IMG/VR virus record: IMGVR_UViG_3300017773_000177
Coordinates: 1-21,526 of that record
Origin: a virus
Strand: one strand, 5' to 3'
DNA length: 21,526 nucleotides
Position numbers and translations under genes: made by a program. Below are positions 1,116-19,530 of this stretch, one piece after another. The stretch's first letter is position 1, and each line of letters begins with the position of its first letter. The notes under the pieces are model-generated. The model saw only the letters and a list, made by a program, of their open reading frames with translations, did no database searches and was not told the origin of the DNA.

Positions 1116-1374
1116 TAATATTTTTAGTGCTAGCTTTTCACCTGACGATGATGTAATTAGAAAATTTAATTATATATCTTCTTTGGTTGGTGACAACATT
1201 AGAAAATCTAAAGACTCTGCTAATTTTGATACTGAAGATTTTAAATCTGATGCTTCTACATTATTAAATTTAAAAATGAAATATGAAGCAACTATGATTA
1301 AGGATACTAAAGATCTTAAATTAGCAAATAAAATATATAACAAGCATAAGCGGTTATCTGCTCTAATGTCTTGA
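1030..1374 (+). CDS. hypothetical protein (114 aa) overlapping the upstream gene
   Basis: Residues 30-114 look like a genuine soluble, helical, charged protein (for example FNYISSLVGDNIRKSKDSAN and LNLKMKYEATMIKDTKDLKL). The only ATG upstream of this segment is at 1030, inside the preceding gene. This gives an unusually long 86-nt overlap in a different frame. No Shine-Dalgarno sequence precedes 1030, so either translation is coupled to the upstream gene or a non-ATG start further down is used. It ends just before the tmRNA acceptor segment. No family is recognised. Confidence 0.55.
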   Translation: MKKNPQKNKVTNAQLRSVAKNNGLQQSLNNIFSASFSPDDDVIRKFNYISSLVGDNIRKSKDSANFDTEDFKSDASTLLNLKMKYEATMIKDTKDLKLANKIYNKHKRLSALMS

Positions 1375-1383
1375 TATTTATTA
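1374..1383 (+). promoter_or_regulatory. possible promoter box for the tmRNA (ATATTTATTA)
   Basis: ATATTTAT at 1374-1381 resembles the recurrent TATATTTATA box and starts within the stop codon of the upstream gene. A transcript beginning a few bases later would start near the two G residues at 1385-1386, just before the tmRNA acceptor segment. The match is imperfect and the DNA is AT-rich, so this is tentative. The tmRNA could instead be processed out of the upstream gene's transcript. Confidence 0.25.
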
Positions 1384-1447
1384 TGGATCGAAGTACTTTT
1401 ATTAGCTACTCTATTGGACGCGGGTTCGATTCCCGCCATCTCCACCA

Positions 1448-1465
1448 AGTGACAACTAACAATAT
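1448..1465 (+). other. tmRNA intervening spacer
   Basis: These 18 nt separate the CCA end of the acceptor segment from the first G of the coding segment. In permuted tmRNAs such a linker is removed from the precursor, leaving two RNAs held by base pairing. Here RNase P would cut before G1466, and 3' trimming would leave CCA at 1445-1447. Confidence 0.75.
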
Positions 1466-1519
1466 GGGGATGACTGGCTTTGACAAAGAGATAAGGATTT
1501 AAGGAAGATCACGTTAACT

Positions 1520-1552
1520 GGCGAATCAGTTTACATGGCAATGGCTGCTTAG
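1520..1552 (+). other. tmRNA proteolysis tag frame, GESVYMAMAA
   Basis: Reading from GGC at 1520 gives G-E-S-V-Y-M-A-M-A-A and then TAG at 1550-1552. The five bases before the resume codon are TAACT. U at -5 and A at -4 match the positions known to set the resume codon in Escherichia coli (UAGUC). The small hydrophobic -AA terminus is the classical ClpXP degradation signal. The GExxY pattern resembles tags of Bacteroidetes, and the -AMAA end resembles the Chlorobium tag. The resume codon is assigned by this resemblance, so the N-terminal limit of the tag is less sure than its end. Confidence 0.75.
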
Positions 1553-1558
1553 GCACCC

Positions 1559-1597
1559 TGACCCAAACGGTTTAAAAGAGGTCATGTCGTAAAAACC
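1559..1597 (+). other. H-type pseudoknot in the tmRNA coding piece
   Basis: Stem 1 is TGACC (1559-1563) with GGTCA (1580-1584). Inside its loop, GGTTT (1569-1573) can pair with AAACC (1593-1597) downstream. This makes a typical H-type pseudoknot just after the tag stop codon, the place where tmRNAs carry PK2. The pairing is read by eye and unfolded alternatives have not been scored. Confidence 0.6.
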
Positions 1598-1622
1598 TCG
1601 GTTGGTGGTAGGAAATTTTTAA

Positions 1623-2166: not shown

Positions 2167-3144
2167 ATGAAATTAAAATTATTCCCATATATGATAGCTT
2201 TATCTGCATTGGCGGTATCAGCCTCAGCAGCAGCTTATTCAGTTTATGGCCTTAGCCAACTATTTGCCGGAGCATCTTTAGCTGTTATTATAATGGCAAG
2301 TTCTCTAGAAGTATCTAAACTAGTAATAGCATCTGCTCTATATCAATATTGGAATGATCTTAATAGATATATAAGAACCTATCTAATAGTAGCTATTTTA
2401 GTTTTGATTACAATTACTTCTGGTGGTATATATGGATTCCTATCCGGAGCTTACCAACAGACTGCTGCAGAATCGGAATTAGTCTCTAAGAATCTAGATA
2501 TTCTTAAAACTAAACAAAATAGATATTCGAGTAGATTGACTAATGAAACAACCAAAGTAAATAGTCTTACAACATCCCTTTCTAATCCAACTAAAATCCA
2601 ATATGTGGATAAAGAAACTGGACAGCTAGTAACTACAACATCATATAAACAAAGAAAGTTGTTAGAGACCCAGCTATTAAAATCTGAATTAAATGTTTCT
2701 AATTTAACCGACTCTATTTCATTATATGATTCTAAGATTTTAAATATGCAGTATAGTAATCAAGCAGCCAGAGAATTAGGGCCTTTAAAATACATGGCTT
2801 CTTTAATGAATAAACCAATGGAGTCGATAATAAATTGGTTTATGTTACTAATTATTTTTGTATTTGATCCTTTAGCTATTGTTTTGGTTGTTGTAGCTAA
2901 TATGGCTTTTTTAAAACTTAAACCTAAAGTAGCTCCTGTTGAATACTTTAATGCTAGAAATAAAAAATTAGAACAAATAGTTGAATCTAAACCCAAAGAA
3001 CCCCAAATAGAAAAAATTGTTGAATATAGAAATAATCCTATTGTATTGGAAACTCTATTGCAATTAATACACAGAAATCCAGAATTTTCTGCTGAGTTCG
3101 AAGAAAAATTAAAAAATCAATTTTATGGCGAAGAAAACAAATAA
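2167..3144 (+). CDS. four-helix membrane protein with long coiled coil (325 aa)
   Basis: Three hydrophobic segments lie near the N-terminus (about residues 7-28, 33-60 and 70-93). A polar region of about 120 residues with heptad-like patterning (KNLDILKTKQNRYSSRLTN and onward) follows, then a fourth membrane helix at about 222-248. The C-terminal 75 residues are charged and partly Pro/Lys/Glu-rich (ESKPKEPQIEKIVEY). With an even number of helices, both ends lie on the same side, and the coiled coil would sit on the other side of the membrane. I do not recognise a family with confidence. Bacteroidetes DUF4407-type proteins share this general plan, but I cannot show homology. The size and shape suggest sensing, scaffolding or superinfection control rather than a simple holin. 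The start at 2167 lacks a Shine-Dalgarno sequence. Confidence 0.7.
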   Translation: MKLKLFPYMIALSALAVSASAAAYSVYGLSQLFAGASLAVIIMASSLEVSKLVIASALYQYWNDLNRYIRTYLIVAILVLITITSGGIYGFLSGAYQQTAAESELVSKNLDILKTKQNRYSSRLTNETTKVNSLTTSLSNPTKIQYVDKETGQLVTTTSYKQRKLLETQLLKSELNVSNLTDSISLYDSKILNMQYSNQAARELGPLKYMASLMNKPMESIINWFMLLIIFVFDPLAIVLVVVANMAFLKLKPKVAPVEYFNARNKKLEQIVESKPKEPQIEKIVEYRNNPIVLETLLQLIHRNPEFSAEFEEKLKNQFYGEENK

Positions 3145-3730
3145 AGTTACCAAAATCAAAGGCGCAAAAAAATATGTAGCCGTTGTAGTTAAAGATCAAA
3201 AAGCATTTGATAAAAAATGTGAACATCGTGTAGTTTATAGAAGAGGAAGCAAATGGAATCAAGATCCAGATCTAACTTATAGATATATGGATTGTAAACT
3301 ATGTGGTCAAGAATCTCAAGTTGGAAATAGAGCCACCGCTGCTACATGTAGTCAGTGTGTTAATTCTATGGTTGAAGCACCAAGTATAGGTAAACAAAAA
3401 ATAGTTACTGGTCGTCCTGCTGGTTGGCATTGGAAAGCAGTTTTTGTAGATAAAGACGGAACTGTTTATCACCGAGGAGTAGAACAACCTAAACTAAAAG
3501 GTACTCTAAAGCCTACAAACATAGAACCTAAAAAAAGAATTAGAAAGCGTGACAAGCAAAAAGTAATCCAGGAAGCTATCCAAAGAATTGCAAAGCTAAA
3601 GAGAAAGCTACCTAAGACTAGATTCAAAAAGGATAAAAAACCTATTGAAGCACAATTAAAAAAACTTCAAAAAATTGCTCAAGGTAAATTTCCTAAGAAT
3701 TTTTCCATCCCTGAATTTATGGCTGAATAA
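3125..3730 (+). CDS. zinc-ribbon protein with basic C-terminus (201 aa)
   Basis: A probable zinc ribbon lies at about residues 57-79: CKLCG, then ATCSQC 17-20 residues later, giving a CxxC...CxxC set. Another Cys-x-His pair (KCEHR) lies near residue 33. The last 80 residues are very basic and helical (KKRIRKRDKQKVIQEAIQRI), which suggests RNA or DNA binding. It starts within the 3' end of the membrane protein gene (20-nt overlap) without a Shine-Dalgarno sequence, pointing to coupled translation. No named family is recognised. A role in transcription or nucleic acid packaging is a guess from the charge and the ribbon. Confidence 0.65.
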   Translation: MAKKTNKVTKIKGAKKYVAVVVKDQKAFDKKCEHRVVYRRGSKWNQDPDLTYRYMDCKLCGQESQVGNRATAATCSQCVNSMVEAPSIGKQKIVTGRPAGWHWKAVFVDKDGTVYHRGVEQPKLKGTLKPTNIEPKKRIRKRDKQKVIQEAIQRIAKLKRKLPKTRFKKDKKPIEAQLKKLQKIAQGKFPKNFSIPEFMAE

Positions 3731-3793: not shown

Positions 3794-4006
3794 ATGGATA
3801 AAATTATTTATGAAAGATCTGACAAGTCTATGGAACCTCAAAAAATTGTATTTGAAGTTTCTCCTGATTTGTCCTTGAAAGATTTTAAATTAAATTGTAT
3901 TCGAATGGCTCAAGCATTAGGGTATAGTACCGAAACAATAAAAAAAGAATTTAACTATGTTGGAGAGTCTAGTGACCCTTCACAACTAAAATTATTATTT
4001 GGCTAG
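3794..4006 (+). CDS. small hypothetical protein (70 aa)
   Basis: I do not recognise this 70-residue soluble protein. A strand-like segment (QKIVFEVSPD) leads into a helix (LSLKDFKLNCIRMAQALGYS). The start is supported by AAAGGAA six bases upstream, and it is the first gene behind the promoter-like region at 3728-3762. The next gene, the ClpP-like protease, starts one base after its stop codon. Translation of the two is probably coupled, and this small protein may act with the protease, although nothing in its sequence shows that directly. Confidence 0.65.
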   Translation: MDKIIYERSDKSMEPQKIVFEVSPDLSLKDFKLNCIRMAQALGYSTETIKKEFNYVGESSDPSQLKLLFG

Positions 4007-4007
4007 T

Positions 4008-4658
4008 ATGAAAAAAGAAGAAAATCTTTATGACGAACCGGATTTGGAAACTCCAAAAACCGAAGAAGAAGAACCTCAAGTAAGCTTTGTATTGGGCGGT
4101 CAAGAACCTCCTGGTCCTGATATGCAAGAAATGGATTCTGGCTTATCTATAAAAGACTCTTTGCTTTATTTTATAGGTAGTGTAGATGAATTTTCTTTAT
4201 TAGACTTTATGGCAAAGACTCGAACCATATTAAAAAATAGACCTGAAGAAAATGCTAAAGACCCAATAAGTGTTGTTATAGATTCCTTTGGTGGCGATGT
4301 TTATTCTACTTTAGGTATTATAGATTTTATGGAAAACTTAGAGGTCCCGGTTAATACAATAGCCAGAGGTAGATGTATGTCTGCAGCAGCAATCATATTG
4401 GCATGTGGTACTGGTGATAGGATTGCTTCGAAAAGAACTAGTCTGATGTTACATAATAGTTCCGGTGGAGCTTCAGGTACTGCAAGAGAAATTAGAATTA
4501 ATATAGAACATCATGACAATCTTGATAGTGAATTATATTCTATTCTTGCTGACAAAACAAAAAAGCCAGAATCTTGGTGGAAAGAAAATTTAAGAAATGA
4601 TTTATATATAAATGCTGACAAAGCTTTAGAGCTAGGTATAATAGATTCAATAGGATAA
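4008..4658 (+). CDS. clpP: ClpP-like serine protease (216 aa)
   Basis: This is a self-compartmentalising serine protease of the ClpP fold. After about 45 acidic, disordered-looking residues, the core carries VVIDSFGGDVYSTLGIID (canonical substrate-groove GG motif), Ser125 in GRCMSAAAI, His149 in MLHNSSGG and Asp198 in RNDLYI. The Ser-His and His-Asp spacings (24 and 49) fit Escherichia coli ClpP (25 and 49), so the triad looks intact. Family members assemble as double heptamers and rely on a ClpX- or ClpA-type unfoldase; none is seen here, so a host unfoldase may be used. I chose the ATG at 4008 rather than an upstream TTG. The acidic N-terminal extension is not typical of the bacterial enzyme. 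In phages ClpP-like proteins may also process capsid proteins, but no capsid genes are in view. Confidence 0.85.
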   Translation: MKKEENLYDEPDLETPKTEEEEPQVSFVLGGQEPPGPDMQEMDSGLSIKDSLLYFIGSVDEFSLLDFMAKTRTILKNRPEENAKDPISVVIDSFGGDVYSTLGIIDFMENLEVPVNTIARGRCMSAAAIILACGTGDRIASKRTSLMLHNSSGGASGTAREIRINIEHHDNLDSELYSILADKTKKPESWWKENLRNDLYINADKALELGIIDSIG

Positions 4659-4659
4659 T

Positions 4660-5403
4660 ATGAAGTTAACAGATAAGCAAATCACAGACAATTGGCAAAA
4701 ACTATTAGATATAGTCGAGTCTAGTTTTACTGGAAAAAGACAAAAAACTCTTTTAGCTATGTATGAGTTTTTCCAAGACCGCATGATAGTAGCTCCGGCA
4801 TCAGGATTGGAACATTATCATAATTGTTTTGAAGGTGGATATGTCGACCATGTTATTCGCGTAGTCGAATGTGCAAAAAAATTAGATGCTGCTTGGAATT
4901 CAATGGGTGCTCAAGACGAAGCTTATACTCAAGAGGAATTAATCTTTGCTGCACTTCACCATGACTTAGGTAAAGTAGGTGATCGTGAAAATCCATATTA
5001 CGTTCCAAACCCAAGCGAGTGGCATAGAAAAAATCAAGGTAAGATTTATGACTTCTGTGAAAATCTACAACACATGAGTGTTCCTGATCGCGCACTATTT
5101 TTACTTCAAGAGTTTGGAGTTCGGTATACTGCTAATGAAGCTATTGCAATCAGATGTGCTGATGGTTTATATGATGTAGCAAGTGAGGCTTACTTTAAGA
5201 CGTATAATCCTCAAAAAGAATTGCGCAATCATTTACCAATACTATTACATCATGCGGACCACATGGCTTCTAGAATAGAACATGATGCAGCTAAAAATAC
5301 CAAGCCATCTATTAAACCAAAAACTATTTCTAATACAAAAAAAACTGTTTCTAAAGCAAACGAAAAAGCAACAGATTTATTTAAAGATCTATTTGGAGAA
5401 TAA
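4660..5403 (+). CDS. HD-domain metal-dependent phosphohydrolase (247 aa)
   Basis: The HD signature is clear: His in EHYHNCFEGGYVDHV, the HHDLGK motif (His100-His101-Asp102) and a later HHADHMAS segment near residue 198. These would coordinate two metals. Such proteins hydrolyse phosphate esters of nucleotides; subgroups act on dNTPs, 5'-nucleotides, ppGpp or cyclic nucleotides, and the sequence does not tell which. The C-terminal 45 residues are Lys/Thr/Ser-rich and look disordered, ending in a short helix (ATDLFKDLFGE). AGGA at 4652-4655 supports the start, and the gene begins one base after the ClpP stop. HD hydrolases are frequent in T4-like phages, where they are usually thought to serve nucleotide supply. 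Confidence 0.8.
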   Translation: MKLTDKQITDNWQKLLDIVESSFTGKRQKTLLAMYEFFQDRMIVAPASGLEHYHNCFEGGYVDHVIRVVECAKKLDAAWNSMGAQDEAYTQEELIFAALHHDLGKVGDRENPYYVPNPSEWHRKNQGKIYDFCENLQHMSVPDRALFLLQEFGVRYTANEAIAIRCADGLYDVASEAYFKTYNPQKELRNHLPILLHHADHMASRIEHDAAKNTKPSIKPKTISNTKKTVSKANEKATDLFKDLFGE

Positions 5404-18277: not shown

Positions 18278-19084
18278 ATGGGCTATACATTCAAACAGAT
18301 TGCCACTAAAAATATTACTAAACATACTGCACACAAAAAGTATGAAATAGCAATATCAGATTCTACGGGAAGCTTTGACGACTTAAATGTTTTTGCTTAC
18401 CAAGGAGCTTCTAATTCTTTAGAGTGGGATTCTGCAAATAATACACTTACTACTAATGGTTATGCTAAACGTGATATATATGATTCTATTCGTAGTGATT
18501 TTTACAAGTCTTGTTTTTCAGGGGCTTTTACAGGATTACTTTCTCAAAATCCAACAGGTAGTAAAATTGTAAAAACTTCTTTACAATCATCTATAAATGT
18601 TATATCGATTCCCCACCTTATGAAAAGTGATAAACTAAAACCTGGTGAAATAAAAATAACTTCTGGATCTCTAATACTTTCTGATGATAGCAATGGTAAT
18701 TTAATATCCGGTTCAACAAATGTAGGAAATGTATTTTATGATTATGGAGTTATAGTTTTAAATGCAAGTGCATCTGGAAATTGGTCAAATGCTTTTTCAC
18801 ATTGTAATTTAGAATTTAAAAATACTTATGTTATGGAAGAACATGAATACATGTGTAATATAGGTAAGGAAGAATTCAACGCCAGTACCAATCAGTCTAT
18901 TTTATCTGACATACCCAATAAAAAACTAAAGTCGATAGTAACATCATCAGCATGGAATCCATATATAACCACTGTAGGTCTATATGACCAAGACAATAAC
19001 TTATTGGCTGTAGGTAAACTGGGTCAACCAATTAAAAAGTCTGAAAAATACGATACATCATTTATTATAAGATTTGACACATAA
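18278..19084 (+). CDS. baseplate/tail structural protein, shorter paralogue (268 aa)
   Basis: This shares with the previous gene the C-terminal YITTVGLYDQDNNLLAVGKL block, and, with looser similarity, the YMCNIGKEEFNASTNQS and VFYDYGVIVLNASASGN segments. It is 124 residues shorter and has a different, Ser/Asn-rich central region. Two adjacent related genes suggest a duplication followed by specialisation, for example two subunits of a baseplate ring. AAAGG shortly before the ATG supports the start. The stop overlaps the nuclease start by one base. Confidence 0.6.
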   Translation: MGYTFKQIATKNITKHTAHKKYEIAISDSTGSFDDLNVFAYQGASNSLEWDSANNTLTTNGYAKRDIYDSIRSDFYKSCFSGAFTGLLSQNPTGSKIVKTSLQSSINVISIPHLMKSDKLKPGEIKITSGSLILSDDSNGNLISGSTNVGNVFYDYGVIVLNASASGNWSNAFSHCNLEFKNTYVMEEHEYMCNIGKEEFNASTNQSILSDIPNKKLKSIVTSSAWNPYITTVGLYDQDNNLLAVGKLGQPIKKSEKYDTSFIIRFDT

Positions 19085-19530
19085 TGAGCCATTGGAAATA
19101 TAAAGGAAAATATCTTAGGGAAGTACCTGAAGGATTTTTCGGTTTTGTTTATTTAATTACTAACATTCTTACTAGTAAAAAGTATATAGGCCGTAAATAC
19201 TTCGGAACATCTCGACGGATTAAAGTTAAGGGTAAAACCCGCAGAAAAGTTGTTCGCAAAGAATCCGACTGGAGAACTTACGTTGGTAGTTCCAAATCAG
19301 TATTAGCAGATATTAATGAATATGGAATTGACAAGTTTAAGTTTCAAATTTTATTTTTGGGTGAAACAAAGGGCCAAGTAAATTACATGGAAGAAAATAT
19401 CCAACACAAATCTGATGTTATGATCCGCCAAGATTATTATAATGATTGTGTTGGTAGTAGAAAATTTGTTTCTGTAAAATTTACTGAAAAATCAAAAAAG
19501 CTAATCTTAGAAACAAAACTCCCTAAATAA
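19084..19530 (+). CDS. GIY-YIG nuclease, Seg-like (148 aa)
   Basis: The GIY-YIG core is visible: GFVYLITNILTSKKYIGRKY at about residues 18-37 (VYL in place of GIY, then YIG with the conserved Arg). This is followed by a basic segment with an SRRIKVKGKTRRKVV stretch, DWRTYVGSSKSVLADI, and the metal-binding Glu near residue 103 in NYMEENIQ. Family members cut DNA using one divalent metal; free-standing phage versions are often homing endonucleases (Seg in T4). No DNA-binding repeat of the NUMOD type is evident at the C-terminus, so it may be a domesticated nuclease rather than a selfish gene. The TAATG overlap with the structural gene implies shared translation. Confidence 0.7.
   Translation: MSHWKYKGKYLREVPEGFFGFVYLITNILTSKKYIGRKYFGTSRRIKVKGKTRRKVVRKESDWRTYVGSSKSVLADINEYGIDKFKFQILFLGETKGQVNYMEENIQHKSDVMIRQDYYNDCVGSRKFVSVKFTEKSKKLILETKLPK

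Follow-up and report, generated by a model that had tools for sequence, protein, structure and literature searches.

The locus and its features

The window, by which we mean the whole 21,526-base stretch of a virus record that was analysed, carries a circularly permuted tmRNA (ssrA) gene on the + strand at 1385-1607. The precursor would be about 223 nt long and its two pieces about 63 and 142 nt, the ends being estimates. The features of the gene and its surroundings are as follows.

1373-1381 (+): the element GATATTTAT, directly upstream of the acceptor piece, a probable promoter element
1385-1447 (+): acceptor piece (tRNA-like 3' part), about 63 nt, from the start of the RF04321 match (exact 5' end estimated) to an encoded CCA
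1420-1436 (+): T arm, stem GCGGG/CCCGC (1420-1424/1432-1436), loop TTCGATT
1437-1447 (+): 3' strand of the acceptor stem, CATCTCC (1437-1443), discriminator A1444 and CCA (1445-1447)
1448-1465 (+): intervening sequence of 18 nt between the CCA and the acceptor 5' strand, expected to be removed
1466-1472 (+): 5' strand of the acceptor stem, GGGGATG, 7 bp with 1437-1443
1466-1607 (+): coding piece (tRNA-like 5' part, helix 2, tag frame and 3' pseudoknot), about 142 nt, 3' end estimated
1485-1510 (+): coding-piece strand of the interrupted helix 2 (1485-1490/1409-1414, 1496-1503/1396-1403 and 1507-1510/1386-1389)
1512-1531 (+): candidate mini pseudoknot replacing PK1 (1512-1514/1521-1523; AACT 1516-1519/AGTT 1528-1531), enclosing the resume codon
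1520-1552 (+): tag frame GGC GAA TCA GTT TAC ATG GCA ATG GCT GCT TAG, encoding GESVYMAMAA and a stop
1567-1599 (+): H-type pseudoknot 3' of the tag (ACGGT 1567-1571/GTCGT 1586-1590; GAGGT 1578-1582/ACCTC 1595-1599)
3999-4658 (+): ClpP-like protease gene (PF00574, E = 5.7e-30), 2.5 kb downstream of the tmRNA gene and not part of the RNA

An earlier note on this DNA had proposed a circularly permuted tmRNA, and three lines of evidence bear this identification out: the Rfam model, synteny and strong covariation. Segment 1385-1552 (+) matched Rfam RF04321 (tmRNA_permuted) over the full model, both pieces included, with 63.4 bits against a cut-off of 47 (E = 2.2e-10 when all 4227 families are searched against the entire window; E = 5.2e-14 for the record). 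Besides the score, the gene has the features of RF04321 members, namely the order of the pieces with a spacer, the acceptor G3-U70, a tag frame that closes with a hydrophobic degron and a stop, and helix 2. The beta_tmRNA model recognized the tRNA-like core with 48 bits, short of the 84 set as cut-off for that model. The note had also named ARAGORN and covariation in related phage contigs as checks; the pairs are kept in the relatives, and ARAGORN reported no tmRNA in the window. The explanation that ARAGORN is blind to the whole clade of related genes described below was ruled out, because it found 61 of the 72 members. RF04321 scores are lower in this clade (54-73 bits) than in most other phage permuted tmRNAs (71-163 bits). 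By homology, the gene would most naturally be read as yielding a mature RNA in two pieces.

All of the predicted elements were recovered, none of them more than a base or two from its predicted position. The T arm and CCA (1420-1447) precede the 5' end at 1466 across the 18-nt spacer, and the 7-bp acceptor stem includes G1468-U1441, equivalent to G3-U70. The second helix, given as 1484-1490/1409-1416, was found within one to two bases of that position (1485-1490/1409-1414), with five of its six pairs formed; the mismatches in helix 2 are A-A at 1413/1486 and U-U at 1399/1500 and 1400/1499. The tag frame and the pseudoknot follow in the predicted order. For the span, which the note gave as 1385-1600, the acceptor piece has to be taken upstream as far as about 1385, as 1386-1389 pairs with 1507-1510, and the coding piece probably reaches about 1607: the Rfam match runs to 1552, the covarying pseudoknot to 1599, and CACC (1554-1557) could, by eye, form a closing helix with GGTG (1604-1607).

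Several elements and genes surround the tmRNA gene. In 56 of the 72 clade genes the motif ATATTTAT is found 51-54 nt upstream of the T loop, and within 60 nt upstream of ORFs in the clade it was seen 33 times on the coding strand, compared with 7.0 expected and with 7 for its reverse complement. TATTTAT(A), the reverse complement of the T4 late box, recurs in the window at 221, 1375, 2160, 5629, 8423 and 16412, often directly before + strand genes. Judged from sequence, TATTTAT(A) or ATATTTAT is probably a phage promoter element. An open frame on the - strand at 1170-1448 (MVEMAGIEPASNRV...) is antisense to the T arm and probably a false gene call. A gene for a SegE-like GIY-YIG endonuclease at 19084-19530 adjoins tail genes.

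The Ser, His and Asp triad of the ClpP-like protein aligned with that of 6hwm. A ClpP gene is present in 19 of 50 tmRNA-bearing phage records, often within about 3 kb of the permuted tmRNA; such genes were noted in the window and in L003, L029, L034, L035, L038, L062, L088 and L102. Within the clade, 21 of 72 loci have ClpP downstream of the tmRNA, and about 40 of the 72 are long enough on that side to show it. With this count, a tmRNA-ClpP pairing as part of the system was set aside; the protease may possibly be a functional partner of the tmRNA. In L229, L236, L266, L271, L277 and L317, in which ClpP was not found, a ClpS gene lies 1.3-2 kb upstream of the tmRNA.

Homologues, covariation and the tag

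The first relatives were collected with a permuted-junction pattern, which drew 110 virus contigs. All 50 of these records that were tested whole scored above the Rfam cut-off, so this kind of gene is common in phages. One of them, L038, has the same gene order around the tmRNA as the window, and the clade was assembled with a second pattern from its tag region together with a search using the membrane protein encoded at 2167-3144. Seventy-one distinct relatives were obtained, nearly all on virus contigs, which together with the window make 72 complete genes. L038 and L120-L122 carry a syntenic tmRNA gene, and the proteins encoded around it share about 31-65% identity. Homologues of the neighbours were found on the same strand in 41 (557-886), 45 (2167-3144), 46 (3125-3730) and 52 (4660-5403) of the 72 loci, with median identities of 46-54%; the clade contigs are often short, and a missing neighbour therefore says little. 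A protein search with the gene directly downstream (1623-2150) gave no relatives. Ten records with the neighbouring genes had no tmRNA match, and neither Microcystis phage Mel-JY01, Flavobacterium phage immuto nor the uncultured LR756508 matched RF04321. Among the closest relatives by the ClpP protein, L112-L114 stop before the locus and L116 is without the tmRNA gene. Because several syntenic relatives do without it, the tmRNA is dispensable, and its absence from the ten records and from the nearest named phages makes it an optional but long-kept passenger.

We aligned 59 homologues with short spacers and assessed 40 named pairs in seven helices. Standard pairs occupied 95.2% of the cells, compared with 84.1% (s.d. 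0.4) when partners were shuffled and 38-49% when the partner was slid by one to three bases. Both sides had changed in 21 of the 40 pairs (259 cells, compared with 77 in shuffles), and none of 500 shuffles reached any of the five measures. The shuffles ignore relatedness, whereas the slid control does not, and the two agree.

Using anchored segments of 71 sequences, the own partner outperformed 2000 shuffles in both the T and acceptor stems, in two segments of helix 2 and in the AACU/AGUU stem. The T stem is paired in 100% of the homologues, pair 1 occurring as G-C, C-G or A-U and pair 2 as A-U, C-G, U-A or G-C. One pair of the acceptor stem covaries (C-G, U-A, G-C), and the G-U pair that the earlier note had singled out for alanine charging is kept in 71 of 71 homologues, whereas the pair two steps off changes freely. 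The helices joining the acceptor piece to the coding piece covary: own-partner pairing in helix-2 segments 1 and 2 was 89% and 96%, compared with 63% and 86% after shuffling, a level that 0 of 2000 shuffles matched, and 0 of 200 shuffles reached it for the third segment (1386-1389/1507-1510). On the tag side, relatives have UGACC/GGUCA, UGAUC/GAUCA, UGAAC/GUUCA, UGAAUC/GAUUCA or UGAGUC/GACUCA. In the 3' pseudoknot, both sides had changed in all five pairs of the second stem (GAAGC/GCUUC, GGGAC/GUCCC and GGGAU/AUCCC in relatives) and in three pairs of the first.

The tag frame and its stop are kept in 72 of 72 members with the consensus GExVExAMAA. Codons 7, 9 and 10 encode Ala throughout (GCA, GCG, GCT or GCC), with changes only at the third position; codon 8 is always ATG, and the stop is TAA, TAG or TGA. 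Because codons 1, 2, 5, 6, 7, 8 and 9 were partly specified by the pattern used to collect the genes, their constancy is in part a product of that selection; the pattern left codon 10 as a whole, the stop and the third position of each Ala codon unconstrained. A hairpin between the last Ala codon of the tag and downstream bases was rejected for weak support and for its clash with the closing helix of the window.

Compact design, proposed function and alternatives

The small size that the earlier note had found unusual is real, though common to the entire clade: ARAGORN spans are 288-297 for the short-spacer genes, fixed flanks included, and mostly 305-405 nt for other phage permuted genes. An ordinary PK1 is absent in the window, and there is no room for one, because the end of helix 2 at 1510 is so close to the resume codon at 1520. 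A mini pseudoknot formed around that codon may take its place. Its 4-bp stem occurs in two states, AACU/AGUU in 56 and AACA/UGUU in 14 of 71 sequences, both strands changing in concert with one mismatch, and the stem of 2-3 bp changes from CG(C)/GCG to UGC/GCA in L173; the proposal is tentative because the two-state switch may reflect few events. CCA is encoded in 8 of the 72 genes, including that of the window, while 40 have ACTA and 18 have ACAA; some tmRNA genes are reported to lack an encoded CCA at this position (PMC11915505). We consider it possible, but on the unlikely side, that the clade represents a distinct minimal design, in which a tiny pseudoknot around the resume codon replaces PK1 and the CCA is mostly added post-transcriptionally. 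If true, the resume codon would be shown to the ribosome in a manner not known from standard tmRNAs. An RNA of this unusually small size can help in working out which parts a tmRNA requires.

The spacer is 13-20 nt as a rule and 65-67 nt in 11 genes (L130, L143, L152, L187, L189, L191, L206, L222, L245, L303 and L305), where it contains AT-rich palindromes such as TATATTCAATTGAATATA; two of the four tested fold better than shuffles, with z below -2.9. Near-identical spacers of 65-67 nt occur in otherwise different tmRNAs, and this recurrence suggests exchange. A whole tRNA gene occupies the spacer in L236 (tRNA-Glu(UUC)) and in L220 (tRNA-Ala(UGC)), as would be expected if the transcript is cut between the pieces.

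We consider it very probable that the locus is a phage-borne permuted ssrA gene from which a compact two-piece tmRNA for trans-translation is made. Host tRNA-processing enzymes would cut a single transcript after 1447 and before 1466, the spacer being lost, and the two pieces would be held together by the acceptor stem and the interrupted helix 2, the pairing of which is evident from covariation. Host alanyl-tRNA synthetase would charge the CCA end through G3-U70, a determinant present in the gene, and host SmpB would bring the charged tmRNA to stalled ribosomes; an SmpB gene was not found in eight phage records, four of them of 130-171 kb. By reading GESVYMAMAA and the stop, the ribosome would be freed, and the AMAA end suggests that the tagged unfinished protein would be passed to ClpXP-type proteolysis. 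Upkeep of hijacked machinery or recycling of host proteins has been suggested as the benefit to the phage (PMC9004378).

A tagless phage tmRNA that inhibits the tmRNA of its host is on record (DS6A, cited in PMC11915505), and the window RNA might likewise be made and charged but act as a decoy, blocking or titrating trans-translation in the host, a role with which the missing normal PK1 would agree. However, a decoy would need neither the frame nor the stop, both of which are kept in all 72 genes with only synonymous variation in the Ala codons, and we regard this explanation as improbable. The patchy presence of the gene, including the ten neighbour-bearing records without a match, would also suit a functionless ssrA fragment from a host, either decaying or recently captured. 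The compensatory changes in the helices and the tag kept across relatives with proteins of about 31-65% identity contradict such a fragment and leave it a very slim chance. That a tRNA-like T arm lies beside unrelated sequence by coincidence is hardly conceivable: T arms alone yield many weak matches and ARAGORN made no call in the window, but the Rfam match above the cut-off spans both pieces, and the homologues, paired in 95% of cells compared with 38-49% in the slid controls, refute a chance resemblance. We thus retain a functional two-piece tmRNA as the preferred reading.

Comparison with known tmRNAs

The tag pattern was also scanned across 84,980 cellular genomes. It matched a single cellular contig, CALBOT010000027.1 (L317), binned in an archaeal Nitrosopelagicus MAG, with a clade tmRNA at 4252-4420. 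The same contig encodes a phage-type endonuclease, an HNH endonuclease and ClpS, and its genome gave the only match above the cut-off among 398 genomes of its phylum. The contig is best read as a misbinned phage contig. For archaea, 68-73 tmRNAs have been reported, 19 of them permuted, with misbinning as the null hypothesis, and one permuted gene (GCA-2688965) has a tRNA-Ala in the spacer, reported as a unique feature (PMC11915505). Compared by arrangement only, that gene resembles L220, a virus contig that also has a spacer tRNA-Ala, with the anticodon UGC. The L317 result matters for the archaeal tmRNAs because misbinning is the null hypothesis and the spacer tRNA-Ala recurs in L220. CALBOT010000027.1 supports misbinned phage as a source of the reported archaeal tmRNAs, and the clade offers a concrete check on them.

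The assignment to a T4-like phage holds only loosely. The window encodes gp25-like and gp6-like baseplate proteins of T4 type and a SegE-like endonuclease, but by the gp6-like protein the nearest relatives are Mel-JY01 (49%), LR756508 (44%) and immuto (42%), and not members of Straboviridae or Kyanoviridae. The earlier note knew of no description of a permuted tmRNA from a T4-like phage, a belief that proved wrong. A two-piece tmRNA was described in the T4-like marine myophage Melnitz, and of 53 two-piece structures counted across phage genomes, 50 came from marine or aquatic samples (PMC9004378); the record of Pelagibacter phage Mosig EXVC030M (MT647606.1, Kyanoviridae) already annotates an SsrA, which matched RF04321 as a permuted tmRNA with 93.6 bits. 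A 2025 tmRNA database holds 79 bacteriophage sequences. Phages with a permuted tmRNA were thus already known, and the available text of those sources does not name the lineage of the window.

The gene of the window shares with RF04321, the merged alpha, beta and cyano tmRNA family, the tRNA-like domain, the spacer, the order of the pieces and the end of the tag, but it lacks most of the PK1 stem that precedes the tag in the model, with deletions of several tens of positions. The Mosig gene is likewise a permuted member of RF04321; it adjoins a late-transcription accessory gene and is annotated as 339 nt, compared with about 223 in the window. Melnitz, like the window, combines a permuted ssrA with T4-like genes in a marine myophage, but it belongs to another phage lineage, its ssrA lies upstream of the late transcription coactivator, and it was reported with a glutamine riboswitch (PMC9004378), of which the Rfam search of the window found none. 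Alongside these phages, a large marine phage clade joins the viruses carrying their own ribosome-rescue RNA.
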